DNA of 64,000 nucleotides from a virus, in the IMG/VR virus record IMGVR_UViG_3300005264_000830, positions 1 to 64,000 of that record; one strand, written 5' to 3'. The notes beneath the pieces are model-generated. The model was given only the letters and a program-made list of their open reading frames with translations, was not told the DNA's origin and ran no database searches. The translations under genes and the position numbers were made by a program. Shown here one piece after another: positions 4,250 through 40,874 of this stretch; position 1 is the stretch's first letter; the number at the start of each line of letters is the position of its first letter.

Positions 4250-4251
4250 TT

Positions 4252-5271
4252 ATGGGAGTAGAATTATTATCTGATGATGAAGTAGAGAAATATATTATTA
4301 AAATATCTACTGGAACAAAACTAGATATTATTAGTGATGAAATTATTTTATTTAAGTACCCAGATAATAATTTAAAATTAAAAACAGATATTTTTTATGA
4401 TATATCCTACAAGAAGGCTATTAAAGATGGCCTTCTTGATAGGGTAGCTCTTGAAAATTTAATAAAGAAAAGAAGTTTATTTTCTGCTGAGGAGCAAAAA
4501 CAATTAGACAAATTAAATTCAAGACTAGAAGGGCAACAAATCCTTCTAGGAAAAACAACAAGAGTAAAAGCCAATCAAGATAGAATTAAAAAAGTTATTG
4601 AAGAATTGAATACAGAAATACTTCAATTAACTTATAAGAAAAAATCTAAATTAATGATGTCAGCAGAAGTAAAAGCCAACGAAGAAAGATCCCTCTATTT
4701 GTGTTGGGCAAGCACATTTAATGAAGAAAACTCAGAGTTATATTGGAAAACTTATCAAGATTTTAATAGAACTACTAAAATAGAATTTAGAGAAAAGGTA
4801 CTATCATCTTTTTTAGATTTTTATTCTGGGATACGTACTGATAAGATTAGATATATAGCTAGACATAATTTATGGAGAATTCGTTATGTAAATAGTCAGA
4901 AGGTGGGAGAACAACTATTCGGTGTTCCTTCTGCAAACTATACTACTGATATGCTAAGTTTAGTATATTGGTCAAATTATTATGATAATATATATCAAAT
5001 GATGCCAGAAGATCGACCTGGGGATTTAATAATAGATGATGATGATGCACTAGACGCATACATGAAATCATTCTATGAGGAAAGGACACGAGAGGATGCT
5101 ACTAGACGTAGTAAACATAAAACCCCTGGAAAATTATCAGCATTTGATTCAGAAGAAGTCATAGTTACAGCTTCAAATGAATTATGGCATGATATTGATT
5201 ATGATAAGCCTAGAGAGGCTCAAAAACTAAAAGATAGAACTGATATAAAGAAACGGACCAAGCGAGGATAG
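4252..5271 (+). CDS. Putative tail assembly chaperone-like protein 2
   Basis: A 339-residue protein starting two bases after the previous stop with no good Shine-Dalgarno, so probably coupled. It repeats the plan of its neighbour: a Y-x-x-A-x-x-x-G-L-L segment (about 49-60), a long coiled coil (about 75-140), an aromatic helical core with YLCWASTF and YWKTYQDF (about 149-175), then an acidic DDDD stretch (about 261-264) and a basic C-terminus. By position it is the second member of a chaperone pair feeding the giant tape measure. An alternative is a minor tail or tail-completion protein. Nothing catalytic is visible. Confidence 0.5.
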   Translation: MGVELLSDDEVEKYIIKISTGTKLDIISDEIILFKYPDNNLKLKTDIFYDISYKKAIKDGLLDRVALENLIKKRSLFSAEEQKQLDKLNSRLEGQQILLGKTTRVKANQDRIKKVIEELNTEILQLTYKKKSKLMMSAEVKANEERSLYLCWASTFNEENSELYWKTYQDFNRTTKIEFREKVLSSFLDFYSGIRTDKIRYIARHNLWRIRYVNSQKVGEQLFGVPSANYTTDMLSLVYWSNYYDNIYQMMPEDRPGDLIIDDDDALDAYMKSFYEERTREDATRRSKHKTPGKLSAFDSEEVIVTASNELWHDIDYDKPREAQKLKDRTDIKKRTKRG

Positions 5272-5316: not shown

Positions 5317-5333
5317 AGGAGGAATTCGCCTTG
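5317..5333 (+). promoter_or_regulatory. Strong ribosome-binding site with TTG start for the tape-measure ORF
   Basis: AGGAGG (5317-5322) lies eight bases before TTG 5331, the first possible start of the 4530-codon frame. The next in-frame ATG is far downstream, so TTG is favoured. A rare start on a giant protein may keep its copy number low. Confidence 0.75.
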
Positions 5334-14300: not shown

Positions 14301-17300
14301 AAATTGGCAGAATCAAAAGCTGTAGCAAAGAATATGCAGTCTAGTTTTGGAGATTTCACACAGTCTGGAATGTTAGGGGATGATAGTTATTCTATATTAT
14401 TAAAGGAGAGTATAGAAAAATTACGTAAAGATGCTAAAGATATAATTTTATTAAATAAGAAAGCAGATAGAGATGCGGATAAGATAGGGCTATCATTAGA
14501 AGAAAAATTAAATGTAGCTTCATTACAGGAGTTGTCTAACGAGGGTAAAAGACCTTTAACTCCTGCAGAAAAGTTGATTGACCCTAAACATGCTGCAAAA
14601 CTAGAGATAAGTAAGCCTATAAAATCTAAATTAGATTCTTTGTCTGCTACTTTAATGCAAGCTACTAATAAAGACGCGTATACTCATTTAGAGACTTTGG
14701 GTAGGAAAGTAGGAGTATTAGGAGTTTCTTCTGAAACTATGGCAACTAGGGATATTGATTATAGACCTATGGCAATGCGTATAGCTAAACAAAAAATGCC
14801 TGACCCTAGTCAACAACAAGGTGAAAAATTTGAAAAATTAGTATCTTCTATAATAGATAAAGCAGTTATTCTTGATCAAGCAAAAACTATTTTGGATGCT
14901 GCGAAAACTAAAAAATCAGAAGGTATATTTTTGGAAGGGCTATTTCCTAGATATGATAAAATGGCCAGTCAAGGAGAATTTTTTGATAGTACAAGAGCGG
15001 AAGTACAGGTTAGTAATAAAGAACAAATGGCAAGAATACCTAGGAGTCGAACTACTGGTGTAGGATTTGATGGTATGGCGGCCGAAAGTAGTGGAATGCT
15101 TTCCCCTGGACAAGGACCGGTACCAGTCTATTTAGTAGGAGTAGCTTCTGATGTAATGACTGCTGCAGAGTCTACTGGGGTTCAATTTAGTCAAGCAAAA
15201 AGTTTTGCTCAAACAACTACTAAAGAAAAAATTCCTTTAGAATTATTTAATCGCATTGAAGAAGCAAAAGAAATTGTAGATAAACTTACTGGTAAACTTA
15301 ATGACGCTGATACTAATGAAAGTAATTTTGGAGAAAAATATAGAGCAAGCCAACTAAAAGGCACTAGTGAAGGGCTTAGAAATAGAAATAATCAAATTGA
15401 AGCAATTAAAGAGGTAATGACTAAATTTTCTACTAAATCAACACCCGGAGAAGACGTAAGGTCCGACATAATGACATCATCTTCGCTTGTTGGTACAGGA
15501 ATGCATGTCAAATTACAAGAAGAGCTATATAAAAATTTAAGTAATGTATCTATTGAAGTACCTGTAAAATTTGAATCTGAGATTGCAGGAGAAGTTTCTG
15601 GTACTATTGATGTACTTCAGAGAGATGATAATGGGACAGTACAGAAAGTTATAGACATTAAAACTCTTTCAGACCCAGCCTTTAAGCATATAGAAAAAGC
15701 CGTTGAAAGATTACAGAAGAAAAAAGGAACCACAGAAGTAGATTGGAAGGATGTAAAAGAAGAGTTGTCTGGTAAAGGGGCCAGTTATAGATTAAAAAAT
15801 GAAAAATTAGATGAAGTGGCTTCTCAGCTAAATTTATATTTAGCTTCAGAGCAAGTAGGAAATAAAGCCGCAAAAGCAGAGGCTCATTTTTATAGCAGAG
15901 CAGTCGGTGGGGAAAAGAAAAAAGCGGTAGTATCGTTTAGTTTTGATCCAAAACGTTTAGAACGAGATATGTCAGCTATTAAAATTGCTAGAGATACTAT
16001 TTTAGCCGAGCAGGGAGAAGGCGCTTTTGCTCCTACTGCTTCTTTTAAACAAGCAGAGGCTATAGCTGCTAAATTAGAAAAAATTAAATATGATGCAGAA
16101 GAAGTAAATAAACTTATTCGAACTGGTAGAGATTATAGTGATGTAACTCAATATAATATGTATAGAGGATCTGCTGCCAGTTCTCATGGTAGGGGTGGCC
16201 CTAAAGCAAGGATGGCCACAGAGGCTAAAAGGGCTGCAGCAAAAAAAGCTTTTGATTTAGACCAAAATTTAACTGCTAAACCTGTAACATCTGGTAAGTT
16301 ACTTTCTGATGTTCATACAAATTTAACCAATTTGCATAAACGATCTAAATTATTGTACGCTACTTTAGAACGAGGATCGGTAGGCACAGAGGGGCCAGAT
16401 TTTGAAATGCTCCATAAAGAAATTAAAAAAGCTATATTAGAAATTACCGATTCAGGCCCTAAAAGAATGGATTTTAGTAAATTAGTAACTGATTTGAGTA
16501 AAAAAGGAGAACTAAAACGACGAGACGTAACTAAAGCTTGGCAAACATACAATATTGCTCAAGGGGATTACTTTGTAGAACTTACTGAACGTATGAAGAA
16601 GAACTTAGAAGAAGACCCATACGATGTAAGTAAATATAGTGATTATGAATCTACTGTCAAAAAATTTCAGAAATTTGTAAGAGGATCTCTAGGAAAACGT
16701 ACAGATATTTATACTTATAATAAACAGTATGTTTCTCCGGAATTAGCAAGAGGAGCCCAAGTTTATTTAGAGCCAGAACAGTTAATGAAGAAAGTCTCTG
16801 GCCCGTTAGGAAATGATGAAGACTTATTAAAAACGTTTAAACAAATGGTAGATGTGCCATATGAAGAGTATCCGTCCCCTAAAGAAGCAGTAAGAACAGC
16901 GTTAAGGCAATTAGTTAAAATAGACGACGAACTATTAAATATATATACTGATGCTGAAAAGGTAGCTAGAGTAGGCGAAGTTATAGAGGGGGCTTGGGAT
17001 TTTAGTAATATAAAAGTAAGTTTAGCTAGAATGAAGGCCGCCTTAAAGTTGTTAAAAGAGAACTCATTTGATGAAGATCCTGAAAAACTTGAATATTATG
17101 ATAAATTATTTAAACGTGTTTCTGGGCTAGACACTATGTACGCTGATATGGATTTTGGTAATGCTCAGACAAAAGACGCTACTACTGGTACTTATGGGGA
17201 TATTGGACTTATAAAAGTTCCTAAAGTTTTTTCTGCTACTGAACAATTAGCATTACATGAAAGAAATGTTAAAAAGATTACTGAGTATTACCAACGTTTA

Positions 17301-18923: not shown

Positions 18924-21900
18924 TGAGTGATTTTTCATCTGAAAATACCAAATTAATAAAAGCAATGGCTCCTTTGGTAGGAACTGGTGTAGGTGTGGCT
19001 TTAGTGGCACCGTCTGCTATTAAAGGGCTTAAGTCACTAGTCACTACGGCAAAAGATTACAGAGATGAGAAATATAAAATAATATCAGCTGATGAAGCTC
19101 ATATACAAGCAATACGAAGTGTGGAATTAGAGTATGATGGTTACGAAAAGAAATTAAAGAAAATAAATAGAATAAGTGATTCTTCAGAATTACAGACTAA
19201 AATGGTTGATTTAGATACGTATAAAAGTCCTATATTAGAATTGATACGTATGCAGAAACAATTACAAGGGTTTAACAATAATTTAATAGACATTAATCCA
19301 AATGTTATAACAGGATATGATACATTTGGAAATGCTATTATTGGAACATCTAGTAGTCTTAAACAGTATTTAGCTATATTAGAACAAACAAAGGTTAAAG
19401 AATTAGCTTTAGAAAAAGTAGATGTTGCTAAAAGATTTATTTCTGATTTAACTAAAACTGGAGGTTCTGAGAAAGTAAAAGAAGAACTTAAATCTTTAGC
19501 GTCTGAGTTCCCTGTTATTGGCAAACTTATTTCTTCTAATATAGTAATAGGCACTAGACAGGCTATAGGCACTGTACAAAAAGAATTAAATAAATTAATT
19601 ACTTCTAGAAATGAAAACCCAATATCAACAGCTTTTGATAGTGATATTAAAAAATTAGAAGATAGCTTATCTAAGCTTAGAGATAATTTTAAAAGTTCTG
19701 TTTCTGATTTAAAAAAGACTCTTTCTGACATTGACTTACAAGGTTTATCAGCCGAAGATATAATAGATGTGTTTAGTTCTCCAGATTTAAAGAAAGGTTA
19801 TGAATTATTACTTGAGTACGATGTAAAATTTAATACCCCATTTACTAAAGGAAAAGCTGATATTGGCGATTTAATAGGTAAACAGGTTCTTGGTGGAATT
19901 AATCCTAGAATAACCCCTGTGTTAGAGGCTATACCGGAATTAACTTTAGAACGTACTAAAGAAGCAGGTATACAGCCACTAGAAGGAAAGAAAGAAGTTT
20001 CTCTACGGTCGGGAGATATAGCAATTTTAAATGATGAATTCTCAAAAGATTATAATGTAGCAGGAAGACAAGCTCTAATAGATGTAAAAGATACAGATAA
20101 CATAATATTAGAATATTTTGATAAAAGACAGAATGAATTAAAAAGAAAAACCTTTGATATAACGGATATAAGTCCTTTTGTCCAAGCAATTCTACCTACT
20201 AAACAGATTATGGATGCTACAGAGGACAAATTACAGCAATTAAATGCTTTTGTGGTAGGAGCTTCAGCAGGTATATCTTCTATGGATAATAGATTATTAC
20301 TAGAACGTAACTTAGATTTAGGTGGTAGATTTTTTAGTGATATTAGTACGGGCACTCTAGTTCAATCAGACAAAGGGTATAATCCTATAACGGAAACGTT
20401 TGGAACACAGTCAGAAAAACAAGGGTATGCTGCAGATTTCAAAAAATATTTTTCGGATCCTATGAATGATTATAGTAAACAAATGAATCAATTAAAGAGT
20501 TTAACATATGAAGGTATTGATACTAGTGAGGTACAATTAGTAGGTGCCCTCAGAGAAGAATTATCTAATATGCAAAGTATACTTAAGAATAATCAAATAG
20601 TATTTCAATATAGAGCGGTACATGAAGATCTTAATAAAACATTGGAAGAAGGTACTAGAGTATTAGAGCAAAATATTAATTTAGAAAAACAAAGGCAAAA
20701 AGTAGATACACATAGTACAGGGTTTTTATCTGGAGTAGCAAAAGAGTTAGATAATTTGGATTTAGGTAATTATGATTTTAGTTCTTTAAATACGCAACAA
20801 AAGCTATTATCAGAATCAGATAGTTACAGACAAACCGCTGGTACAGTAAAAGTACGTGAAATTGCTTTAGAAGGTGTTAAACAACAATTGAACGAAATAG
20901 AAAAAGCAAAATTAGCTATAACATCTATAGATAAACTTAATACTGGTTTTGGAAATAAAATTACCCCAGATCAATTTGAACAGTTTGTAAAGATTACAGA
21001 TACTGGCGGATCCCCTATAGATGCTAAAATGCTTCTTCAAAATGAAGCTATATTGAAAGAAGAAAAACTTACAAATTCTAATTTAGAAGAACTTATTAAT
21101 ATTATGGGAAATGAAGATGACATAGCAGGTAAATTAAGTGCAAGTTTAGAACGCAATGTTAGTTCAAAAACTTCTGTATTACCAATTGCAGCAATAAAAG
21201 ATTTAAGTTCTTTAGGTAATATACGAGAGAAAGCCATCAAAGGGGAAAATTATGAATTTGCTGCAAAAATAGATCAAGTAATGAATACTTTTTCAGCAAA
21301 ACTAATAGGAACAGTAGGAACAGATAAAGTATTTAAAGCGATATCTGCTAATAAAGCATTAAATTTAGTAAACCCGTTTTCTAAACAGATCTCAAAAGAA
21401 GAGTTTATAGGAAGGTCTATTAGGGGCGCTAATTTGTCTCCTGAAAAATTTATTGCCGATCTAGATAAATCTCAGAAAAAGGGGTGGTCGTTATTTAATT
21501 CTTCTATAAAAGATTCTCAAAATTATAAACAGTTTATATCTTTGAGAGAAAACAATTCAAATGAATCGTTTATAAAATCAAAAGATGTAGTTAAGGCTGC
21601 TGCAGCTTTAGCTGTGGCAACACAATTTTCTAAACTTTCCCAGGGTAGTAAATCTTCAGAACTGGCAAAACAGTCACAGAGTTTGGAAGAAAGAATAGAT
21701 TTTGCTACTAAATCAAAAGCAACACCTGCAGTTATATCAGCACTTGAAAAAGAATTAAAAGCTACTAGAATAGCTTATGAAAAATCTGATAAAATGTCAG
21801 CAATATATGGTGTGACTCAGGCAGCAAGTGGTATTGTTGGGGGGTCTACTTTATTAGCTCAAACTTTAGGAGCATCAGAAGGAACGGCTAAAGGAACAGC

Positions 21901-24900
21901 TGCTGTAGCTTTAGGTACTTATGGGTTATTAAAGATGCTTAGTAAATCTGTTGGGCAGGATCTGCCCACTTATGTAAAAGAATTTGGGGATAATGTAAAG
22001 CCTTACATGAAGAAATTTTCTGAAGGAAAGGAAGTAGGTGACTACAAATTTAAGAAGATGACTGAAGATTTTGTTAAAACATATAAAGAAGAATCTAAAA
22101 GAGCAACGGGAACTGAACAGGGGAAAGTTGCAGCACAAACTAAAAAAGAATATGATAGTTTATCATCAAAAGAGCTAAAAGAATTGAATAAAATGTCAAA
22201 AGAATTTTATGAAAAAGCTTCTACAAAGGTGGATGAAAAGTCTTTGACATTATTAAAAACTTTAACTGTAGGTTTAACTGCGGCTTTTGCTGGGTATGCT
22301 GCCAAACAACCAGATACAAGACGTAATACCTTAGTAAATAATGCACAAAGAGAAAGTGAAGCATTCAATAGTTTATTGGCCTCTAACACTAAATATGTAG
22401 ATGATGTATTTAAACGCACAGTAAAACAGCAAGACGATTCAAGCATAATTTCTCAGAAACAAGAGCAGACTACAGAGTCTAAACTAATTAATCCTGATGA
22501 TGAGAAAAAGAAACAATTACAGTTATTAGATAATAAGTCTGAATCTATCAGTAAAGAGTTACAGTCTATTTTAAAAACTCAAGCAAGAGATATAGCTAGT
22601 TTAGATGCTGCGAATTTATTAAGAGAAGCACAATCAAGACTAGAAGATTATGTTTTATCAATTAGAGACAGTTTTGTTGAATTCTCAGTTCAAAAAAGAT
22701 TAGGGGGCCCTTTATCAACAGGAAATAAATTAGAAGGTTATGAAGAAGATGCTGTTTTTCCTTCATTTATTAAAGACATGAGTGCTCAAGCAAGAACATT
22801 CGCAAAGTACAAAGACGAAAAAGTTAGAGGAGGAACTTTTGGTGGTGCAATTAAAGATAGTATAGGTAATGGATTTAATGCTATTATTTCAGGAATAGGA
22901 AATAAGTTTGAACAGTTATTGACTCCTTTTACTAATTTTAATGAATTCATGGCGTCATATAAAGTAGGTGATATGACTTATAGTGATCAAACTGGAGTGT
23001 ATAATAGACTTGGCAAACAACAACAATCATATATTGGACTTGGTTCTGTTATATCTAAGGAAATAATGAAACTAAATACTGTTATAAATACTTCTGGCCA
23101 AAATAAACAAGTTAAAAATGCTGCCGAAGATAGAAAAGATGATTTAGAAGATTTATATCGAAAGCTAATTGAAGAGTCTGATAAGACTAAGGACCATTTA
23201 AATCAGTTAGGTACAGCTTTAAGTAATTTTAATTCTTATACTGAAAGTCTACAAAAATTAAATAACGTTATAAAGGAATTATCAGTAACAAGGGTCGTTA
23301 ACAATCTCAAAGGTATGAAGGAGTATCAAGAAAATATATCTAAAATGGTAGGCGGCTCCCATCCGTCAGCTGCTACAAATATAACATATGAGCAGGAACG
23401 TATGGGTGAAAGAGTAGGCATCGATTTAACTAATAGAAAAAGTACGAAGTATGATGTTGAAGAAGTACAAACATTAAATGCTATACAAAAAGGTGATACT
23501 AGTTTAGAAACTATGATGAAGTATTTAGATATTCGTAAACAGGAAAATAGAGATTCTTCAAATGATACTAAACAGAAGGAAGAAGATATATTTAGAGCAT
23601 CATTACAACCATATGAGGAGTTTATCACGTCTTTACAGCGCCTTAAAGGTATGGAAGGTGTAGGTTCAAAAGAAGGTAAAGATATTACTAGTGTAATGGA
23701 AAGCTTGGCAGATAATATGGCAAGAGCAACAGATATGATTACTGTAAAGCAAGCGAAGATAGAATTAAAAGATTCTTTTGGTTTTTTTGAACGTGGAAAT
23801 AAAACGTATAAAGATGAAATGCAGCGATTAAAAGCTATGGACCCATATGATACTGTGAGAAGAGGTATGCCAGTAAAAGAGATGGAAAAATTTAAAAAAG
23901 GTGGAGAGTATGATGAATTACTTACTAAATCTCTATTAGAGATTCCTTCTTTAGATATGAAAGAAATGACTCTCGCAGTAGCGGATCCTATTACTGAAAA
24001 ATTAGATATTAGTAATAAGTTACTTAGTGCACTAGTTAAAGAATCAGGCGGAATGTCCCGTTTAGATATTAAAGATTTATTTAATCCTGAAAAAAAGGCC
24101 AGCGGTGGTCGTATTTTTGGAGCAGGAGGTCCGAGAGATGATAAAGTTCCTGCATATCTAAGTCCTGGAGAGTTTGTAATTAGACAAAGTGCTGCAGTCG
24201 ACATAGGTTACGCTAATTTAGAGCATATGAATCAAGCCGGTTCTATACCAAAATTTGGAGCAGGCGGAAAATTGACTAAACAGCATATATCCGGGGCAAT
24301 ATCTTATTTTAATGATGAGGATGGTTCTTTACCAGACGTATTTAATCCAGAATCAAAACTGTTTAATAAAGGTATAACGAAACGATATCTTAAATACTAT
24401 AAAGAAACACTACCACAAAAAGTTCAAGAAAGAGACGATATTAAATCTATTAAATCATTAAAAGATCTTTATAATACATTATTAGATGTAAGTGATGGGG
24501 GTATTTATACCCAAAATGATTTATTTTTAGAAGACTACTCCCCTCTGTTTAAAAGACTAAAAGAGGATAATAAGCCAGCCCTAACTAAGTGGGTAGAGAA
24601 AAATCTAAGAGGAACTAAAAGTACTGCTACTAAAGGTACTAGAGGTATTATAGGTATGAATATAGAGGAAGCTTTAAAAGAAAAAGATGGAGGATTAATA
24701 CCTAGATTAGCATCTGGAGGATTTTTAGAATCTATAGCTTCAGGAAAAGGTTTTAGACATGTTTCAGATAAAATGCGCGGGGCTCAAAATTGGTTAGAAA
24801 AGAAGAGATTAGACTCTGTTTATACTGAAAATTTTAGTATAGGGAATTTACTAAAACAAGGAGCTTTTGCCACAGCGGAATTAGGAACTCGTTTAGGTAA

Positions 24901-27900
24901 AATGCCAATGGATATGTTTTCTATGATTGAAGGTACTTCAGATTTAGGAATAAGTGGTCTGAAAGATGTAGGTTCTCAGTTGTATACTGCAGCATCTGGT
25001 AAGATTAAAAATGATGGAGTGGTTGGTACATTAAAAGATATTGGAACTGCTGGAATGGATGCTTTAAAAGACTCTATTTCTAAAGGTGGATTGGGTATTA
25101 CATCAGAGGTTTTAGCTGCTGTTACTGGAATAGGTGTAACTAAACAATTAGCTAAATTAGATAAAGCTTCTATACCAAAATTATTTTTAAACGAGCGTGG
25201 CTCATTAAATTTTCCAGTTCCAAAAATGCTGCAATCAAAAATAGATGGTGTAACAAAATCATCTGGGCATTATTCAAATAAAGATATATTAGATGTGTAT
25301 AGACGTCAAGCAGGTACCCCTAGTGAATTAGTAGATGAAGAGCTTGTTAATATTACAGAGGACAATATAGGTACTTTAATAAATTTAACTAGGCCTAAGA
25401 TAGGATCATCAGTAAAAGAACTTAAAGAGGCAGAATTATTACATAAACAACTAAGAGCTTCTATGGTTAAAGTTAAAACCTATTCAGACTCTGATTTAAT
25501 ATCTATGTTAAGGTCAGAGGCTAAAGAGAAATTATCTAATGAATTATGGCAGAAAAGATTAAATTTAATTACTGATTCACACATAAAAACTAAAAATATA
25601 CAAAAATCTAATATAACTAAAGAGGCTTTAAATTCATTAGAGAATAAAGCCTTTGGAAAATTAAAGAAGATAGAAAAACAACCATTATTAAGTACGAATG
25701 ATTATATTAAACAGGCCGGTTTTCCAGCTGATATGCCAAGCAGTGAGTTAAACGCACTTAAAAATCAAGTCAGACAAGCTAAAAGTTTTGCAAAAGCTAA
25801 TAATGTTCAATTTAATGGTTTACAACGTACTCATAACCCAGACCCAGAAAAAAGCGCAGCTTTTTTCTATACTTTATCTGATAAAGCTGAGTACACTAAA
25901 GGAGTTGATTTAGGACTAACATGGCAAGGGTATGGAGGACAAGATCCAATAAAAGTAATGGAAAAAGCTAAAGTTTTAAATTTACAAAAACTTCAAGATA
26001 TTTCTACTAGTGATATGAAGAAAAAAGTAGAAATGGTAAAACAATCGGAAGTTAAATTGACTCCAGCTCAGGAATTAACAAAGAAATTAGAAGCAAAAGC
26101 TTTTGGTCTTAAAGAAGGGGGTATTGTAAACTGGATTAATAATTTTGGAACCTCAAATGAGATAAGTAAGGGTATTGATACTCTTCAAAATCAAAAAAAT
26201 AAATATGGCAAATTTAATAAAGGTATTACTAAAGATTTAGATACTAAAGATTCTAAATTTAATTGGCAAAAACTTAAAGAGAGATTTTTCGGTGGAGGGA
26301 CTACTGGAGTAGAGTTTCAAGATACTATTGACAAATGGCAAAAAGGCGAATTAAAAAAATCAGATGGCGGTTTAATCCAAAAATTTGAAAATGGAGGTTT
26401 GTTATCAGGCCCAGGGTGGTTAGAATCTTTTAAAAAAGAGTCAGATGAGTTTGAAAAAGTAAGTTACTTAGGTAAAGCTGCTAAAAAACAATCTACTTAT
26501 AAAAGTTTTACCGGAGATAGTTCTGACGCACAAGAGGTTTCAAGCACTGATTATGCTAAATCTATTACGAATAGCCAACTTCCAACTAGTAATGTTGAAG
26601 ATTTACCATTCGAATCAAAGTCACTGGATGAAGCAGTTTCTAGTAGTAATGAGTCATCTAATAAATTAAAATTTTTTGATAGACATAAGAATAATTTTAA
26701 TACTTATAGAGGAATTACCAGTAGTTTAGAAGTTAAAGCAGCACCAACTACGTTTCATGCAGATCAATTAAAATCTACAATTGATATTGCTAAAAAAAGA
26801 AATGATTTTATTCCATATACTAATAGTGAATTAGATAATTTAGTACAATTGGGGAATGTGGATCAATTAAATAAAAGAATAAAAGCTTATGATGGCACAG
26901 ATACTGTAGCTCCTGTAGCTCTTTTTAATTCATTGGCAAAAGCTAGAAGGAAGACTACTAATGTTGATGACCCGTCTTTGACTAATACAGTTGATAAGAC
27001 TATAAAAGATCCATCACAGCCTAATTCTTTTAAGACTATTGAAGATTTCTTGGCAGCAGGATTTTCTGAACAAGAAGCTAACTCTATAATAGTTCCAGAT
27101 TTTAAAAAAGAAGATGGATTATTTGGGTTTAAAGGTACTCATCGTGATTTAATGAAAATAAAATCTGAGTTTAGAGAGGAAAGATTATCAGGTAAGCATG
27201 GTCCTCAAAAAGAAGTAGATTTTTATATGGCTGAACTAGGAACAACATTATTATCTACATTAACAGGCTTAATGGCTATGGCAGAGTCTCCTATAGAGAC
27301 TACAAAAAATTTAAAATCATCTTTGGATAGTATAGCTGGTTTAGCACAGGATAAGATACTGAATGATGGAGTATATCAGACAGGAAAAGATACAGCAAAA
27401 GCAGCAGGAACTATGTTATGGGATGACTTAAAAACAGGTGGAGTAGGTACTTTAGCTACTTTAATAGATCTTTTTGTTGGAAGTAAAGTTAGTACTATTA
27501 GGAAAATCCCAAGTTCTATGGGTACTGCACGCTCTACTGTTCCTAAAATACTTAAGCCTCAAGCAGGAATGTCAAGTAATACTATAAAATATTTTAAAAA
27601 GCCAGTAGATGTCGATACTATGATTACTCCTTCTGAATTAAAAGAATTAGATCGTATGTTAAAACCTCAAGCTGGTGCTTCAACATCTGTAATAAAGGAT
27701 TATTTTAAAAATAAAAAACCATCTATGTTTACTAATATTGGAGATAAATTTTCTAATGTTAAATCTAAAATGAAATCTTATTTACCTTCTTTTTCTAAGA
27801 GTAAGAAGGATTTGTCTTTGAATAATAGAAGAAAAAACCAAATACTCATGGATTTGGAGAATAATCCATCACTTATGTCACGATTACAGGGTAGAGTTAC

Positions 27901-30900
27901 TACAGATAAAAATATATACGATGTGATGGAGCAGTACGCAAGTAATAAAGTAAGATCAGAAGATTTTATGCAAATGGTAGGTTCTGCTGTTAGAAAACCT
28001 AAAGATATTATTAACAAATATTCTCCTATAATGGGTAATAAATTTTCTAATTTTGGTGATATAATAGCGTCTAAATTTTCAAAAACTACACGAGATAAAC
28101 GAAAATTTGAACGAGCAAAGAAAAATGCTAAACGTGGAAAAACTAATATAGATAAGCAGCGAAAATTTGCAAAAGATCAAGCGATATATAATAGAACTAT
28201 TAAACAGCAGCTTCATTCAGAGCCTACTACTTCACGCAATCAATTTTTAGATGGTATTTATAGTTCTTTTGATGATTTGACTTCTGCACCTTCTAGAGTT
28301 ACTAATATTAAGGAAACGCTAGGATTAAAAACAATAAAAGAAAATTTAAATAAATTTAAAAGTTCTAAAATTGATATAAATTCAGCAGATTATTTTGAGC
28401 TACAAAAAATACCTGGGGTTGGGCCAGTTCGTGCAGAAGCTATAATGGATTATAGAGAAAAGATTGGAGCATTTGAAAATATATCAGCTCTAGGAGATGT
28501 TCCTGGAGTTCCTTTAAGTGTTTTTAATAAAAATAAAGATATTATTACATCAGTACAGAGGCCTACTATTGATACTACCCCTATTACAAAACCTATGTAT
28601 TCTGTGTACGATATGTTTGCAAATGTTAAATCAAAAGCTGAGGCGGCAAAACCTTTTGTAGAAGATTTAGTCCCAAATAAGTTATCAAAATCAAGAGTAG
28701 CTGCTGCTGCCACAGGTTCGGAAAAAATAAATAAAAATGAAATAAAAAAAGTATTAAAAAAGATACAAAAGGCAGTAGATAAAGGTAAAATGGAAAAAGC
28801 AAATAAAATACTTAATGCTGCTGAAAAAAAATACGGAGTAGCCTATGAAAAATTCGCACAAGGTGGAACAGTAGGGTTTAAAACACCTCAATACTTTAAT
28901 ACAGGTACGACCGATTTAATAAAAGATCTTGAAAAAGAAAAAGAATTACCACTTTGGGGATATAATACATGGAAAGATGTGTCTACTATTTTTACTGAAG
29001 AGGAACGTAACAAGGCTATTAACAGACAACTATTTGGTGTAGAATTTGGAAAAAAATCAGATGAAGAAGTGAGACTGTTAAAAAATGATCGTTTAGTAGC
29101 TAAAGCAATAACTTCTGGAACGATTAAACAATACTTGGCCTCAGCATCTAGAGTAAGGGATGGAGTAGTAAAACTTCAAGGCAAAGACGGATTTCATGAT
29201 ATAGATATAAATGGCCGTATACTAGCTGGAAAGGTAGGAATAGGAGCATACAGAGCGGATACGCCAGAAGAGCGCAAAAAACTAGAATCATATAAAGTTC
29301 CAAAATCAGAAATATTGGAGCAACAAAAAAATTATTTCGACAAAAAAGAAAAAATAGCTACTTTACGTAATGATTTTTTTAGTTCAAATGATTTTTCTAG
29401 AGAACTTCCTAAAGAACTTAGAGGAACTTCTTCTGCAAAATATTATAATTATTTAAAAAATATACATAATTTAAGGGCTATTAATAAAAAGAAGCACTTA
29501 GATTTAGATGGAAAATTTTTTAAGAAAGATGAACGCGCAGCTTTAGAGAAAGACTCAGAATATATGGATTGGGCAGCTCAATTTACAGGACCTATAATGG
29601 AGAAATTAGCTAAAGGAGAGCGCCCAGAAAGTCTAATAATGAAGATTAAGACCGGTAATAGTTTACGCCCTTATGAAAATTTATCTCTTTCAGAGGCAGT
29701 AAATGCTGCAGGAAGAGTTGCAGGGGCAAAATTACAAGGATTTCAATCGAAAGACTTTGAAGATAAATACGGATTTGATGAAACATCTGCATTTTTTGTA
29801 AGTCCTAGTTTATTAGAAGCTGCTAAAAGTGGAGATGAAGAAGCAGCTAATAGACTAAGATTAATGACCACCGATAAAAAAGAGTATTTAAAATTAATAA
29901 GTAATAAAAAAGAAGATCAAGCTTCGGCTGTTGAATTTTATAAAAAATTCTTTGTAGTTAATAGCGGACAAAAATATTACGGAGAAGGTAGTATTAAAGA
30001 ATTACTTAAACAATTAACTGAAATGAAAGGGTCCGGTATAGCTTCAGTAACACCCCAGAAAGCTGCATGGGGAGGACGTATTTTTGGGGCAGGCGGACCG
30101 ATGGATGATAAAGTGCCTGCTTATGTGAGTCCAGGAGAGTTTGTTGTAAGAGCACCTGCTGCAAAGAAACTAGGTTATGCCACACTTGATTTTATGAATC
30201 AAAGTGGTAATGTGCCTAAATTTAGTACTGGTAGTGAACAAAAAACAGATTTTAGTAACCTTAGTATGAATCCATTAGCTTCAAGTGCTATGAATAAAAC
30301 AACTAATGTAAAAGCCACATTAGAAAATAATATTGTAAAGTTAGAAAATGACGTTGTAAAATTAGACAAAGATACAATAAAAGCAAAACTGGATGGTCCT
30401 ATAGAAGTTAAATTAGAAAATGACACGGTTAAATTAGAAAGTGATACCGTTAAATTAGAAGATAATATTGTTAAATTAGAAAGTAATACTATCACTGCAG
30501 TCATGGACGGTCCAGTAGCTGCTGAACTTAAAGATAACATTGTACAATTAGAGAGTAATATTGTTAGGTTAGAAAATGATTCTATTACAGCTGTTATAGA
30601 TAGTCCAGTGGAAGCAATACTTAGTGATAATGTAGTTAAATTGGATGTATCGGCTTTAGGAAATATAGGAACTGATATTGCGTCTGCAATAACAAGTGCT
30701 TTAAGTAACTTAGATTTAGGAAGTACAGTTGGAGCCGCACAAACTAATTTAGATGATTTTATGAATAAATGGAATGATAGAATACCCACTTTAATTATAG
30801 AAGGTATAGATAAAGAAATTGAAGTTTTAGCTGGTAATACACAACAAGTAGCACCACAATATAATAATGACTTAATTGAAAAAGTTAATTATCTAACTAA

Positions 30901-31009
30901 TGTAATAGATAGTACTCAAGAAGATTTGAGAACACTGAGAATTAGTTATGACCAAAGGATAGGAGATGCAGAATATAATGCTAAAGAAGCAAGAAATATT
31001 AATACTTAA
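18923..31009 (+). CDS. Giant tape-measure companion with ComEA-like HhH domain
   Basis: A 4028-residue protein overlapping the tape-measure stop by one base with no Shine-Dalgarno of its own. It starts with a hydrophobic helix (about 14-34) and has further hydrophobic stretches (around 1110-1130), suggesting membrane contact during DNA entry. A motif usual near tape-measure C-termini, GGRIFGAGGP followed by DDKVPAY and SPGEF, occurs twice (about 1728-1790 and 3717-3780). Between them are unrecognised inserts, two related Gly/Ala-rich hydrophobic helical segments, and a ComEA-like helix-hairpin-helix with DINSAD, IPGVGPVRAEAI and DVPGVP (about 3146-3215). The C-terminus is an octad-type repeat built on 'VKLEND' (about 3790-3920) followed by a coiled coil. 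It is best read as the second half of the tape-measure/ejection machinery. Confidence 0.75.
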   Translation: MSDFSSENTKLIKAMAPLVGTGVGVALVAPSAIKGLKSLVTTAKDYRDEKYKIISADEAHIQAIRSVELEYDGYEKKLKKINRISDSSELQTKMVDLDTYKSPILELIRMQKQLQGFNNNLIDINPNVITGYDTFGNAIIGTSSSLKQYLAILEQTKVKELALEKVDVAKRFISDLTKTGGSEKVKEELKSLASEFPVIGKLISSNIVIGTRQAIGTVQKELNKLITSRNENPISTAFDSDIKKLEDSLSKLRDNFKSSVSDLKKTLSDIDLQGLSAEDIIDVFSSPDLKKGYELLLEYDVKFNTPFTKGKADIGDLIGKQVLGGINPRITPVLEAIPELTLERTKEAGIQPLEGKKEVSLRSGDIAILNDEFSKDYNVAGRQALIDVKDTDNIILEYFDKRQNELKRKTFDITDISPFVQAILPTKQIMDATEDKLQQLNAFVVGASAGISSMDNRLLLERNLDLGGRFFSDISTGTLVQSDKGYNPITETFGTQSEKQGYAADFKKYFSDPMNDYSKQMNQLKSLTYEGIDTSEVQLVGALREELSNMQSILKNNQIVFQYRAVHEDLNKTLEEGTRVLEQNINLEKQRQKVDTHSTGFLSGVAKELDNLDLGNYDFSSLNTQQKLLSESDSYRQTAGTVKVREIALEGVKQQLNEIEKAKLAITSIDKLNTGFGNKITPDQFEQFVKITDTGGSPIDAKMLLQNEAILKEEKLTNSNLEELINIMGNEDDIAGKLSASLERNVSSKTSVLPIAAIKDLSSLGNIREKAIKGENYEFAAKIDQVMNTFSAKLIGTVGTDKVFKAISANKALNLVNPFSKQISKEEFIGRSIRGANLSPEKFIADLDKSQKKGWSLFNSSIKDSQNYKQFISLRENNSNESFIKSKDVVKAAAALAVATQFSKLSQGSKSSELAKQSQSLEERIDFATKSKATPAVISALEKELKATRIAYEKSDKMSAIYGVTQAASGIVGGSTLLAQTLGASEGTAKGTAAVALGTYGLLKMLSKSVGQDLPTYVKEFGDNVKPYMKKFSEGKEVGDYKFKKMTEDFVKTYKEESKRATGTEQGKVAAQTKKEYDSLSSKELKELNKMSKEFYEKASTKVDEKSLTLLKTLTVGLTAAFAGYAAKQPDTRRNTLVNNAQRESEAFNSLLASNTKYVDDVFKRTVKQQDDSSIISQKQEQTTESKLINPDDEKKKQLQLLDNKSESISKELQSILKTQARDIASLDAANLLREAQSRLEDYVLSIRDSFVEFSVQKRLGGPLSTGNKLEGYEEDAVFPSFIKDMSAQARTFAKYKDEKVRGGTFGGAIKDSIGNGFNAIISGIGNKFEQLLTPFTNFNEFMASYKVGDMTYSDQTGVYNRLGKQQQSYIGLGSVISKEIMKLNTVINTSGQNKQVKNAAEDRKDDLEDLYRKLIEESDKTKDHLNQLGTALSNFNSYTESLQKLNNVIKELSVTRVVNNLKGMKEYQENISKMVGGSHPSAATNITYEQERMGERVGIDLTNRKSTKYDVEEVQTLNAIQKGDTSLETMMKYLDIRKQENRDSSNDTKQKEEDIFRASLQPYEEFITSLQRLKGMEGVGSKEGKDITSVMESLADNMARATDMITVKQAKIELKDSFGFFERGNKTYKDEMQRLKAMDPYDTVRRGMPVKEMEKFKKGGEYDELLTKSLLEIPSLDMKEMTLAVADPITEKLDISNKLLSALVKESGGMSRLDIKDLFNPEKKASGGRIFGAGGPRDDKVPAYLSPGEFVIRQSAAVDIGYANLEHMNQAGSIPKFGAGGKLTKQHISGAISYFNDEDGSLPDVFNPESKLFNKGITKRYLKYYKETLPQKVQERDDIKSIKSLKDLYNTLLDVSDGGIYTQNDLFLEDYSPLFKRLKEDNKPALTKWVEKNLRGTKSTATKGTRGIIGMNIEEALKEKDGGLIPRLASGGFLESIASGKGFRHVSDKMRGAQNWLEKKRLDSVYTENFSIGNLLKQGAFATAELGTRLGKMPMDMFSMIEGTSDLGISGLKDVGSQLYTAASGKIKNDGVVGTLKDIGTAGMDALKDSISKGGLGITSEVLAAVTGIGVTKQLAKLDKASIPKLFLNERGSLNFPVPKMLQSKIDGVTKSSGHYSNKDILDVYRRQAGTPSELVDEELVNITEDNIGTLINLTRPKIGSSVKELKEAELLHKQLRASMVKVKTYSDSDLISMLRSEAKEKLSNELWQKRLNLITDSHIKTKNIQKSNITKEALNSLENKAFGKLKKIEKQPLLSTNDYIKQAGFPADMPSSELNALKNQVRQAKSFAKANNVQFNGLQRTHNPDPEKSAAFFYTLSDKAEYTKGVDLGLTWQGYGGQDPIKVMEKAKVLNLQKLQDISTSDMKKKVEMVKQSEVKLTPAQELTKKLEAKAFGLKEGGIVNWINNFGTSNEISKGIDTLQNQKNKYGKFNKGITKDLDTKDSKFNWQKLKERFFGGGTTGVEFQDTIDKWQKGELKKSDGGLIQKFENGGLLSGPGWLESFKKESDEFEKVSYLGKAAKKQSTYKSFTGDSSDAQEVSSTDYAKSITNSQLPTSNVEDLPFESKSLDEAVSSSNESSNKLKFFDRHKNNFNTYRGITSSLEVKAAPTTFHADQLKSTIDIAKKRNDFIPYTNSELDNLVQLGNVDQLNKRIKAYDGTDTVAPVALFNSLAKARRKTTNVDDPSLTNTVDKTIKDPSQPNSFKTIEDFLAAGFSEQEANSIIVPDFKKEDGLFGFKGTHRDLMKIKSEFREERLSGKHGPQKEVDFYMAELGTTLLSTLTGLMAMAESPIETTKNLKSSLDSIAGLAQDKILNDGVYQTGKDTAKAAGTMLWDDLKTGGVGTLATLIDLFVGSKVSTIRKIPSSMGTARSTVPKILKPQAGMSSNTIKYFKKPVDVDTMITPSELKELDRMLKPQAGASTSVIKDYFKNKKPSMFTNIGDKFSNVKSKMKSYLPSFSKSKKDLSLNNRRKNQILMDLENNPSLMSRLQGRVTTDKNIYDVMEQYASNKVRSEDFMQMVGSAVRKPKDIINKYSPIMGNKFSNFGDIIASKFSKTTRDKRKFERAKKNAKRGKTNIDKQRKFAKDQAIYNRTIKQQLHSEPTTSRNQFLDGIYSSFDDLTSAPSRVTNIKETLGLKTIKENLNKFKSSKIDINSADYFELQKIPGVGPVRAEAIMDYREKIGAFENISALGDVPGVPLSVFNKNKDIITSVQRPTIDTTPITKPMYSVYDMFANVKSKAEAAKPFVEDLVPNKLSKSRVAAAATGSEKINKNEIKKVLKKIQKAVDKGKMEKANKILNAAEKKYGVAYEKFAQGGTVGFKTPQYFNTGTTDLIKDLEKEKELPLWGYNTWKDVSTIFTEEERNKAINRQLFGVEFGKKSDEEVRLLKNDRLVAKAITSGTIKQYLASASRVRDGVVKLQGKDGFHDIDINGRILAGKVGIGAYRADTPEERKKLESYKVPKSEILEQQKNYFDKKEKIATLRNDFFSSNDFSRELPKELRGTSSAKYYNYLKNIHNLRAINKKKHLDLDGKFFKKDERAALEKDSEYMDWAAQFTGPIMEKLAKGERPESLIMKIKTGNSLRPYENLSLSEAVNAAGRVAGAKLQGFQSKDFEDKYGFDETSAFFVSPSLLEAAKSGDEEAANRLRLMTTDKKEYLKLISNKKEDQASAVEFYKKFFVVNSGQKYYGEGSIKELLKQLTEMKGSGIASVTPQKAAWGGRIFGAGGPMDDKVPAYVSPGEFVVRAPAAKKLGYATLDFMNQSGNVPKFSTGSEQKTDFSNLSMNPLASSAMNKTTNVKATLENNIVKLENDVVKLDKDTIKAKLDGPIEVKLENDTVKLESDTVKLEDNIVKLESNTITAVMDGPVAAELKDNIVQLESNIVRLENDSITAVIDSPVEAILSDNVVKLDVSALGNIGTDIASAITSALSNLDLGSTVGAAQTNLDDFMNKWNDRIPTLIIEGIDKEIEVLAGNTQQVAPQYNNDLIEKVNYLTNVIDSTQEDLRTLRISYDQRIGDAEYNAKEARNINT
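28358..28567 (+). other. ComEA-like helix-hairpin-helix DNA-binding domain in the second giant protein
   Basis: Residues about 3146-3215 show DINSADYFELQKIPGVG, then VRAEAIMDYREKIGAF and DVPGVP. This is the two-hairpin arrangement of ComEA/UvrC-type domains that bind DNA backbone without sequence specificity. In a tail-lumen protein it could grip the leading DNA end or follow DNA into the host. Confidence 0.85.
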
Positions 31010-37046: not shown

Positions 37047-38027
37047 ATGGCAATTAACATAGATACACAAAATTTAGAATTATATCCAGGAACAACAAAA
37101 CGAGTATCAATAGATTTAGATAGTATGGTAATTATTGGTGCTGAAGGCGACGAAACCTTTACATTAAATGTCGCTACTAGTGCTTATAGTGATAATACTA
37201 ATAGAACTAATATACCTGATTTATATATTACTAATATGAAAACAGGATGGATTAAGAGCTCTGGTTTTGCTGGTAGTTCAGGTAAATATTATTTGAATGC
37301 AACACACAACAGTTTAAAAGTAAAATTAGATGCGACTGTTAGTGGTAATGACGGTAATGGTTATTATACAATTAGCCTTACTCCGAATGACGATGATACT
37401 CCAGTACCTGGGGAAGTTGTAGCCGCAGAATTAGAAACAAAAATAAGAGCTCTTGCTCCTATTTTAGCAACTGCAGACACAGGATTTACTACTGCATATA
37501 GAAATGCATCTGTAGAATATAAGAATGGTAAATTTTGGGTGGTTTCTGGCAGTGTTGGAAACTATTATTCAGGTAATTTACGTTCATCTGTTGATATAAT
37601 TCCAGCAACTGTTAATGATTGTTCTACAGAATTAGGTTTTGATTTACCAACATCTAGTCATTTTTTAGCAAACGTTGCAGTAAAAGAAACATTGTTAAAT
37701 TCTAGTTACACTGCTGATACTGATACATTAAGTGTAAATACAGGCACAGGTGCTACTGCAGGAATGGCATTTATGATAACTGATGGAACAAATTCAGACT
37801 ATTTTACAGCGTTGTCTGGAACAACTGATTCTAGTATAACAGTGGCTACAGAATCTACTAATGGGTTTATTGGTATAAATAATTCATATACTGGAGGGGC
37901 TGCTAGAATTCAATTATTGAAAGAACAAGACCCTGAAAGTATTCCTAATAGTTGGTATACTTCTATAGATCAATTAGTACGTTATGGTATTAAAGCAATG
38001 GTAAATCAAATAGATTACAGTAGTTAA
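37047..38027 (+). CDS. Structural protein with hook/sheath-like domain
   Basis: A 326-residue protein behind a strong AAAGGAGG site. Residues about 120-200 have the pattern 'VAAELETKIRAL...VEYKNGKFWVVSG...SSVDIIPA...ELGF': a helix, two strands and a final LGF. I associate this small domain with flagellar hook-associated and tail structural proteins. Versions recur in the products of 49809-51386 and 58215-64000. Residues about 215-290 form a second unit with AGMAFMITDG and SITVATE strands, also recognisable in the protein at 39624. A fibre, decoration or baseplate role is likely. Confidence 0.5.
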   Translation: MAINIDTQNLELYPGTTKRVSIDLDSMVIIGAEGDETFTLNVATSAYSDNTNRTNIPDLYITNMKTGWIKSSGFAGSSGKYYLNATHNSLKVKLDATVSGNDGNGYYTISLTPNDDDTPVPGEVVAAELETKIRALAPILATADTGFTTAYRNASVEYKNGKFWVVSGSVGNYYSGNLRSSVDIIPATVNDCSTELGFDLPTSSHFLANVAVKETLLNSSYTADTDTLSVNTGTGATAGMAFMITDGTNSDYFTALSGTTDSSITVATESTNGFIGINNSYTGGAARIQLLKEQDPESIPNSWYTSIDQLVRYGIKAMVNQIDYSS

Positions 38028-38047: not shown

Positions 38048-38467
38048 ATGCAAGAAAAAGGGTTTTGGAATATATTATGTACCGAATTTAATTATAGGTT
38101 ATATGCTGGTGTGCCGGTGCTAGGACATGGGAATTTATACGACACTATGGATTCAGAAATCATGCATTTTGTTCCAGCTATAAATGAATCCATAGCATTA
38201 GGAATAGTTACTGGAGGATTTTTATCTGGTTATAAAGGTTGTGTACTAATGGATGCTAATAATTTTGATTTGATATTACATCAATTCAAACAATTTAATA
38301 TTATGTTTAATATACCTGTACTATTTATTGTAACTGGAGGTTATAATCCATTAAATTTACATAAATTCGAATTTAATAATGATTTAACTATTTTAAATAA
38401 AATAGATTTTTATATGAAAAAATATAATAAATCGTCCATTTTAGTGTATAATGAGATTGTATTATGA
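38048..38467 (+). CDS. TPP-enzyme PYR-domain-like protein (sulfopyruvate/phosphonopyruvate decarboxylase-like)
   Basis: A 139-residue protein resembling the N-terminal pyrimidine-binding (PYR) half of sulfopyruvate and phosphonopyruvate decarboxylases. The key segment is HFVPAINESIALGIVTGGFLSGY (written here as key residues: N46, E47, then A-L-G-I, then G-G-F-L-S-G) followed by CVLMDANN. The catalytic Glu that activates thiamine pyrophosphate (TPP) is E47. A PVLFIV strand follows (about 95-100), as in the family. The partner half is the next gene, overlapping by four bases, which mirrors split enzymes such as ComD/ComE. An enzyme pair inside a tail module is odd. It could be an accessory metabolic enzyme or a repurposed structural fold. 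Confidence 0.6.
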   Translation: MQEKGFWNILCTEFNYRLYAGVPVLGHGNLYDTMDSEIMHFVPAINESIALGIVTGGFLSGYKGCVLMDANNFDLILHQFKQFNIMFNIPVLFIVTGGYNPLNLHKFEFNNDLTILNKIDFYMKKYNKSSILVYNEIVL

Positions 38468-39090
38468 AAACAACTTTAAAGAAAGTATTAATGTATTATG
38501 ATTCAATATTAACAGACAATGATATTGTATTTTATATAGGAAAAAATATTTATAATGAAGCGTCTAGCAATAAGTTAGTAGGTAGATATTATGTAGATAA
38601 TGAATCGATAGATTATTTTTCAATAGTGTTGGGGTTGGCTATGACAACTACTAAAAGAGTAATTATTATATTTGAAGATTCTTATTTATTAAGATATTTT
38701 AATACACTTTTACAAGCTGGGGTCAGTAAACTTACAAATTTATTTTTTGTTGTACTTATTACAAATAAATATGTACACTCAATAAAACAATCTACTATAT
38801 TTAGCTTTTTAAAGTCGAGTAAAGGAGTTTTATTTGAGGCTGGATTTTTAATTCATACTTATACAAAATTTTTTAATAATAAAAGTTCTTTGAAACAACT
38901 TAAAGACACTTATAATAGAATTAAAGGACCAGCAATAGGAATAATTTATATAGAGAACAATAAATTAAGTAAAATATCAAACGATCATGAATTTAAGTTT
39001 GATGAATTTATAAAATTTATTAGAACGGATAATGAAATTATTAATAAAATTAATACTGATGTAGTATTAGTATTAAAGGGAGAAAAATAA
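38464..39090 (+). CDS. TPP-enzyme PP-domain-like protein, partner of the preceding gene
   Basis: A 208-residue protein resembling the pyrophosphate-binding (PP) half of the same decarboxylase family. It has a helix 'FSIVLGLAMTTTKRVIIIF' followed by EDSYLLRYFNTLL and LTNLFFVVLITNKY. The family's GDG-x(24-28)-NN metal/TPP motif is degenerate: GDG reads EDS (D72 kept) and NN reads TN (N101 kept). KQSTIFSFLK and an E-A-G-F segment follow, matching the 'Q-x-T ... GF' part of ComE-type proteins. The changed motif suggests weak, altered or lost catalysis, although D72 and N101 could still hold Mg. The ATGA overlap with the PYR-like gene implies a complex. Confidence 0.55.
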   Translation: MKTTLKKVLMYYDSILTDNDIVFYIGKNIYNEASSNKLVGRYYVDNESIDYFSIVLGLAMTTTKRVIIIFEDSYLLRYFNTLLQAGVSKLTNLFFVVLITNKYVHSIKQSTIFSFLKSSKGVLFEAGFLIHTYTKFFNNKSSLKQLKDTYNRIKGPAIGIIYIENNKLSKISNDHEFKFDEFIKFIRTDNEIINKINTDVVLVLKGEK

Positions 39091-39102
39091 TTATTATAAT
39101 CA

Positions 39103-39618
39103 ATGGCACATATATTTGTAAAAAATAGTTTAAATACTTCCAAAGCTGCTAAAGTAGATATAAATTTTCCAATATTTGTCACTACTGATTCGGATGGTGA
39201 TCCTATATGGGTATTGGAAACTGCCACTACTTATCCTTCCGCAAGTGGGTCAGAGATACTACCTACATATATAAATAAAGCTACAGAGTTTGAAAATTTA
39301 GATGAGGCTGTAGCAGAAGCAGTTTCAGAAATTGCAAAACAGATAGATTGGTTACCTTTAGTAGACGACACTGCTCCTCCATATGTAACAGAAGTACGAC
39401 CTACAGTGAGTGGTGTATCAATAGCTTCAAATATTTATATAGATATACAAGAAGATGCCCCATCAGCTGGCATAGATTTATCAGAAATGAAAGTGATACT
39501 TAATAATGGGACTATTGATATAGATATAACAGATGATTGTATTACTACTGGAAATCCTTTTATGTATAATATACATTGGGAACCATCGGAGCGATTAACT
39601 AGACACTATGAGGAGTAA
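39103..39618 (+). CDS. Structural protein with C-terminal Ig-like strand region
   Basis: A 171-residue protein with a weak ribosome-binding site, perhaps depending on upstream translation. N-terminal half acidic and partly helical (AVAEAVSEIAKQIDWL, about 67-82). From about residue 88 the sequence DDTAPPYVTEVRP...SNIYIDIQED...GIDLSEMKVILNNG follows the pattern of a bacterial Ig-like domain, where 'D-x-x-P-P-x-V' starts the domain and 'G-I-D' plus 'V-x-[LV]-N' ends it. A similar segment occurs near the C-terminus of the protein at 42122 (about 780-830). Likely a fibre or adhesin component. Confidence 0.5.
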   Translation: MAHIFVKNSLNTSKAAKVDINFPIFVTTDSDGDPIWVLETATTYPSASGSEILPTYINKATEFENLDEAVAEAVSEIAKQIDWLPLVDDTAPPYVTEVRPTVSGVSIASNIYIDIQEDAPSAGIDLSEMKVILNNGTIDIDITDDCITTGNPFMYNIHWEPSERLTRHYEE

Positions 39619-39623
39619 TTTTT

Positions 39624-40874
39624 ATGGCAGATAAAGACAATTTAAATTTTAGAAAACCACACATGACTTTTGTAGAAGGATATTTTTATATGTTTGACGA
39701 TGATTCAGACATGCTTCTTCAAAAAACGGACGATGGTGTAACATCTTTTTCGTACCCGTTTGACACATTAATGACTGGAGTAGCTTCAAGTATTGAACAT
39801 GACGGTATAAATTTTTGGAGTATGGAAACGGGCGGGACAGCTAATACTAAATTAATTAAACGATGGAGAATTGAGAATTATACATGTAAGTTAAAGGATG
39901 AAATTACCTTAAGTAACCCTGTTCATTATTTTAATGCAAATACATTTACTGTAGAACATTACCATTGTACCATTAGTGGCGGATATTCTGCAGGAGATAC
40001 AATTATAACTACTAATAATGTAGGGATTCTTCCTGGTGAATTGTTGGCCGGTATGGCTGTTACTATTGGTCCAAATTCTTCAGGTGAATTAGAAACAATT
40101 AATGTACAGCATGTAAGCGGAGAAATTATTACAATAGCAGATCCATTAGTTAATAATTATTCTAACGACGATCCATTATTATTTTATAATTATTTATGGG
40201 TATTTAACAATTCACATGGAACTGACTCCTCTACAGGGTGTTTATATAAACTTAATGCTTATTCTGGATCGATAATAGCACAGTACCCTGGCGGGGTATA
40301 CAAAGGAATTATGGCATCAACTTTTGCTGAAATCACACATTTTACATCATTAGGGGTAGTAGATTCGTTGATGTATGTAAAAGCAAGTAACTTACTTTTT
40401 GTGGACATAAACTCTGCATCTTTAGACTACCATGGGTCAATGGCTATGGATACAATAGATGATAATGAAATAGATATTCTAGAAGTGTATGATTTGGCAG
40501 TATATAATAAAAATCTGTATAGATTACAAAGGTCTATGACATATTTTGGAAATACTTATTCTTTTAGTCAGTATAATTATCAAGCTGCAACATTTAATTC
40601 GATGGTGGCATCTATTAGTATGGTCACATCTCCTAATGTTATTGCTGCAAATGAAGTGAGTATATCAGAAATAACTGCTAGAGTAAGAGATCAATTTGCA
40701 TTACCAGTAGTTGGAAGGTTAGTGTACTTTGAGGTAGAGGCTGGATCTGGAGGATCTATTGTTACCGGGCAAACCATTGTTAATACAGATTCTGATGGGA
40801 AAGCGTTATCATCATATAGGGCAGGGGATACAGCAGAACTGGTAGTTATTAAAGCAAGAGTTGACCAAGTGTAA
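39624..40874 (+). CDS. Adhesin-like tail protein, tandem paralogue 1
   Basis: A 416-residue protein, first of three adjacent relatives. Shared plan: an N-terminal 'G-x-x-Y-x-F-D' strand, then 'DGINFWSMETG' (about 59-69), 'KRWRIENYTC' (about 79-88), a G-x-x-I-x-I unit in the middle (about 120-190), a propeller-like region with NLYRLQ (about 300), and a C-terminal Ig/invasin-like domain (about 328-416) with the hallmark 'A-R-V-R-DQF'. Ig-like ends of this type are common on phage proteins facing the cell surface, so host adhesion or decoration is likely. The order N-propeller-Ig repeats in the next two genes, so the cluster grew by duplication. Confidence 0.6.
   Translation: MADKDNLNFRKPHMTFVEGYFYMFDDDSDMLLQKTDDGVTSFSYPFDTLMTGVASSIEHDGINFWSMETGGTANTKLIKRWRIENYTCKLKDEITLSNPVHYFNANTFTVEHYHCTISGGYSAGDTIITTNNVGILPGELLAGMAVTIGPNSSGELETINVQHVSGEIITIADPLVNNYSNDDPLLFYNYLWVFNNSHGTDSSTGCLYKLNAYSGSIIAQYPGGVYKGIMASTFAEITHFTSLGVVDSLMYVKASNLLFVDINSASLDYHGSMAMDTIDDNEIDILEVYDLAVYNKNLYRLQRSMTYFGNTYSFSQYNYQAATFNSMVASISMVTSPNVIAANEVSISEITARVRDQFALPVVGRLVYFEVEAGSGGSIVTGQTIVNTDSDGKALSSYRAGDTAELVVIKARVDQV

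Follow-up and report, generated by a model that had tools for sequence, protein, structure and literature searches.

Within the window analysed here, a stretch of 64,000 nucleotides covering positions 1 to 64,000 of the viral record IMGVR_UViG_3300005264_000830, two short overlapping genes, named alpha and beta, are found among the genes of a tail module, with the following layout:

5331-18923, + strand: tape-measure protein of 4530 aa, the anchor for reading the region as a tail module (PHROG 4211, 3e-71)
37047-38027, + strand: g326, type 1, a conserved module protein whose type goes with the presence of the pair
38048-38467, + strand: alpha, 139 aa, PYR-domain half of a presumed split ThDP-decarboxylase-like heteromer (phmmer, TIGR03845, AF2, 15 loci)
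38464-39090, + strand: beta, 208 aa, PP-domain half (TIGR03846, RhiF profile match, AF2)
38464-38467, + strand: 4-base ATGA shared by the stop of alpha and the start of beta (ORF coordinates, junction table)
39103-39618, + strand: g171, a conserved module gene placed after the pair in one clade and before it in the other
39624-40874, + strand: g416, whose C-terminus carries an Ig domain of the Big_1/invasin-like kind (Pfam Big_1 at 2e-7, which is under the curated cut-off)

The original prediction had described reading frames of 139 and 208 residues sharing four bases, with an NE47-S-x-ALG stretch in the first (INESIALG in the sequence), and both coordinates and residues were as it gave them. 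The two genes are adjacent in all members with the pair, and among the 12 loci where the junction was measured the 4-base overlap predominates (8/12), with overlaps of 8 or 23 bases in two others and gaps of 16-17 bases in the remaining two. Placement within a tail module was likewise confirmed, an assignment that is well supported because the tape-measure gene lies upstream and the Ig-like, adhesin-type Big_1 domain of g416 lies downstream. The gene at 5331-18923 (4530 aa) adjoins a second very large one at 18923-31009 (4028 aa), and since the first of these giants encodes the tape measure, the tail may be exceptionally long.

Taken alone, neither alpha nor beta finds close relatives in annotated phages or in IMG/VR, and neither of them matches Pfam or PHROGs. 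Alpha is similar to RhiE (PDB 9iz3_A; phmmer, E=3e-9), and reaches 7e-5 with TIGR03845 (22.7 bits, curated cut-off 147.95) and 3e-4 with TIGR03297, for which the window scores 19.8 bits and thus stays below the curated cut-off of 312.5. Its AF2 model, computed from a 12-row alignment with a pLDDT of 92.8, has RhiE 9iz3_A as the top PDB match (TM 0.83), followed by AzcB and then by the PYR domains of 2-oxoacid oxidoreductase, AHAS and POX, and a PYR-domain fold is therefore predicted for the alpha chain. Beta of the window is by itself a weak case (TIGR03846, 0.0019; 18.2 bits, curated cut-off 221.5). Homologues that occupy this locus in related phages give 2e-23 against TIGR03297 and 3e-12 against RhiF (both L025) and 1e-21 against TIGR03846 (L023), and a 12-row beta profile matches RhiF 9iz3_B at 3e-7. 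Since these same-locus relatives match TIGR03297, TIGR03846 and RhiF strongly, the homology of beta is settled, the best score among relatives against the ComDE/PPD models being 82.7 bits, still under the curated cut-offs. The beta model from its 12-row alignment (pLDDT 74, with the last 40 residues poor) has as top PDB matches the RhiF chains 9iz3_B and 9iz4_B, with a TM of 0.75-0.78 by target length, and a PP-domain fold is likewise predicted for this chain. The beta C-termini of L013, L022, L023 and L025 have in common a T[AS][LMF][YF][VI]xP stretch, not present in the cellular references seen, which could be a docking tail. Both halves are homologous to a split ThDP enzyme; the PYR/PP identity and the two-gene layout in the manner of ComD/ComE, both anticipated in the original prediction, are upheld by the RhiE match, by TIGR03845 and TIGR03846 and by the matches of the relatives, and the search for TPP-enzyme matches returned them for both proteins.

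The top sequence and fold match for both phage proteins is RhiE/RhiF, the phosphonopyruvate decarboxylase of the rhizocticin cluster of Bacillus subtilis ATCC 6633 (9iz3, 9iz4), a ThDP-dependent enzyme (PMC12141560) whose PYR and PP halves are likewise encoded by adjacent genes. RhiE has 181 residues against the 139 of alpha, and the phage pair stands among tail genes; moreover, RhiEF has GSMG, GDG, DN and QNSG, whereas the phage pair lacks QNSG and RG throughout, and GDG and Asn in most loci. Among NCBIfam models, those for ComD and ComE, the sulfopyruvate decarboxylase that serves coenzyme M synthesis (TIGR03845 and TIGR03846), score best with the window's alpha and beta, although the pair obtains 18-23 bits against cut-offs of 148 and 222, and no coenzyme M or sulfonate context was found near it. 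The two domains of the single-chain phosphonopyruvate decarboxylase TIGR03297 align with both phage halves, but this enzyme is fused and canonical in cells, while the phage scores fall far under the 312-bit cut-off and the phage record has no PEP mutase. The second-best fold match, AzcB/AzcC, is the alpha-imino acid decarboxylase of Streptomyces (9u8q-9u8s), also a two-chain ThDP decarboxylase; it is less similar, and its beta keeps the ThDP motif.

Relatives of the pair were reached through the neighbour at 39624-40874, and then by scans with alpha and module alignments. The first three contigs found through that neighbour carry the pair at the same place (3/3), and it is present in 16 viral contigs including the window, which amount to 15 distinct loci because L015 and L016 are nearly the same. 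All 15 have it in the same tail-gene neighbourhood. In another 11 related contigs the module occurs but the pair does not. A beta profile search of the rest of these 11 records gave no match; the same query matched 13 of 14 records, the exception being L020, one of the 11. Absence from these contigs is provisional because some of the records are fragments, and the sequence of L045 stops short of the pair's site. The single hit among annotated phages, MT836947.1 (L028, 1-8203), labelled Bacteriophage sp., was rejected as a phage relative since it looks bacterial, and was kept as a reference only; its PEP-mutase fusion, aminotransferase and single-chain PPD resemble a bacterial phosphonate cluster. 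Scanning of genome contigs with alpha found no match, and with beta a single cellular split pair with canonical motifs, L065, whose alpha and beta (3486-4548) belong to an envelope-sugar gene cluster in a UBP3 bacterium, beside an aldehyde dehydrogenase. No paper on such a pair in phages was found in the open-licence literature.

The motif columns were compared over the 15 distinct phage loci, and in the window they correspond to the following codons:

38186-38188, + strand: E47, catalytic-Glu column of the PYR domain (INESIALG in alpha)
38674-38682, + strand: E71-D72-S73, replacing the GDG metal/diphosphate motif (motif columns)
38761-38766, + strand: T100-N101, with T100 in the metal-ligand Asn column (alignments, RhiF profile)

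The catalytic-Glu column keeps Glu in 12/15 loci, with Asp in L006 and L007 and Ile in L054. On the beta side, the exact GDG occurs only in L025 and GEG in L013 and L023, the other loci having EDS, EDY, EDQ, DDS, NDG, SDC, DDF and similar. The metal-ligand Asn is kept in the same three loci (3/15; L013, L023, L025) and replaced by Thr in the window clade, so that the full GDG...N is found only in L025, which also retains the Glu, and the window reads EDS...T. GSxG is kept in just one locus (L023), and a GGxPT stretch following the ligand loop in several members. Alpha has neither the QNSG loop nor the RG-containing substrate loop in any of the 15, whereas the cellular references, L028 as a single chain and L065 as a split pair, keep both loops and the other motifs as well. 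A complete catalytic set is found in none of the 15 phage loci. Regarding the metal motif, the predicted change of GDG to EDS and the persistence of D72 stood, but N101 is not a retained ligand Asn, the ligand column being that of T100. A one-residue shift that would make N101 the metal ligand was tried and rejected, because Y103, aligned in every locus, anchors the register; N101 aligns with the Gly after the ligand Asn whether 12 or 15 members are aligned, and does so too when the profile is aligned to RhiF. As judged from these columns, the metal/diphosphate motif of the PP domain is lost in the window lineage. On the other hand, an acid is found at the GDG Asp column (D72) in 15/15 loci and at the Glu column (E47) in 14/15, a retention that exceeds what would be expected for a site with no role and counts against simple decay.

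In the contigs found, the pair is linked to one version of the tail module. Gene order is g326-alpha-beta-g171-g416 in the window clade and g326-g171-alpha-beta-g416 in the other. The pair is present in 15 of the 17 contigs with type-1 g326 and in none of the 9 with type 2 (Fisher 2e-5, a value that ignores shared ancestry). A tree of g326 places the contigs that have type 2 and no pair in a single, supported group; at the pair's site, type-2 contigs have nothing or a LAGLIDADG-like ORF. L010 contains both types, and there the pair adjoins type 1, with an extra type-2 g326 after beta. The LAGLIDADG-like ORFs at the g326-g171 site of pair-less contigs, assigned by eye, lie at 6963-7889 in L058, 6958-7893 in L059, 4096-5031 in L060 and 7140-7643 in L051. 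A different insertion occupies 2988-5481 of L006, between g164 and g326, and includes a 419-aa putative TnpB-like ORF.

The pair is also under constraint. For L006 against L007, the least saturated comparison, dN/dS is 0.30 for alpha, 0.22 for beta and 0.08 for g326, the other comparisons being saturated at synonymous sites and thus indicative only. Purifying selection thus persists in two loci where the catalytic Glu has become Asp. Mean identity of the pair is 34-36%, in comparison with 42-58% for the three neighbours measured.

Altogether, the reading that we prefer, to which we give an even chance, is that of a ComDE/RhiEF-type split decarboxylase in a tail operon that is now mostly a pseudoenzyme heteromer working with tail proteins. 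An ancestral phage would have taken a ThDP-dependent 2-oxo-acid decarboxylase of this type into its tail operon, with alpha and beta probably produced in matched amounts through translational coupling and assembled, by analogy with RhiEF and from the gene pairing, into an alpha-beta or alpha2-beta2 heteromer. In the window lineage the site has lost its diphosphate/metal side, and in every lineage alpha has lost its substrate loops, so that the complex presumably does not run the parent reaction; loss of catalysis is suggested by the residues themselves. Selection retains the fold and the pairing while the active site changes. Because fold and pairing are under selection and the pair is tied to one g326 type, a protein-protein role with tail proteins is favoured, and from this linkage the complex would most likely be a pseudoenzyme that works alongside the tail-tip proteins, either within the virion or during its assembly, and whose closest partner may be the type-1 g326 protein; a tail function and presence in the virion are both suggested by genomic position. 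More specifically, the two-chain ThDP-decarboxylase fold may have been exapted as a non-catalytic tail part, with the ThDP site eroded on several branches and the complex linked to one tail protein paralogue, a proposal made tentatively and with the odds somewhat against it. Counting against the preferred reading, the pair is dispensable and faster-evolving, acids are retained at both columns, and L025 keeps GDG, Asn and Glu. What makes the system attractive is an enzyme pair fixed in a tail operon over many diverged phages, with an active site wearing away stepwise and L025 still bearing the beta-side motif, that is, a natural series of graded states in which one can ask at what point an enzyme ceases to be one and what takes the place of catalysis.

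Phage metabolic genes are common and are usually interpreted as enzymes working during infection. The pair might form a working but altered enzyme, using ThDP or another cofactor late in infection on a host or phage metabolite such as a sugar-derived 2-oxo acid. The acids kept at the two columns, the beta-side motif largely retained in L025 and L023, the GGxPT stretch of several members and a surface-sugar gene set in the same phage all speak for it. That set, at 4271-14995 of L004 (record 108271-118995), comprises a Gfo/Idh/MocA dehydrogenase, a DegT aminotransferase, two hexapeptide transferases and GT2 and GT4 glycosyltransferases. This reading is nevertheless unlikely, given the QNSG and RG loops missing in every locus, the ligand Asn missing in 12/15, the complete set present in no member, and the additional acidic residue that the window clade has in place of the first Gly of GDG, which should disfavour the diphosphate. 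Moreover, PEP mutase (PF13714) is absent from the 129-kb record, where controls were detected, although the record may be incomplete. The original prediction had weighed an accessory enzyme for phosphonates or sulfonates against a repurposed fold; the former is not supported, in view of the missing loops, the lost PP motif of the window and the record without PEP mutase, which leaves a phosphonate role unsupported although the surface-sugar genes are there, and the latter is the better of the two. Phosphonate or sulfonate metabolism should not be called from a domain match alone. Within the surface-sugar region, the glycosyltransferase ORF at 4271-6463 of L004 also matches intein-splicing and LAGLIDADG models, possibly reflecting an intein within a glycosyltransferase.

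If the pair helped g326-type or fibre proteins to assemble or fold, as a chaperone or partner outside the finished virion, this would account for its position and its linkage with type-1 g326, as well as for an amino-acid composition that differs from that of the S/T/G-rich neighbours. We know of no tail chaperone with this fold, and regard such a role as quite unlikely. The pair might instead be a moron-type accessory in a late operon with its action in the host, where it could serve, for example, as a decoy for ThDP enzymes or metabolites of the host. Fast evolution, low GC and patchy presence are typical of accessory genes, and the pair evolves faster than its neighbours, has a GC of 0.26 (alpha) and 0.22 (beta) against 0.33 for the window, and is missing from 11 related contigs; but morons usually turn over, while this pair has been kept in one neighbourhood over deeply diverged phages and at two fixed positions only, which makes a moron improbable. 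That the genes are pseudogenes or a functionless recent insertion, as motif loss and low GC might suggest, is hardly credible and already contradicted by the intact, paired reading frames of the 15 distinct loci and by dN/dS values well below 1.
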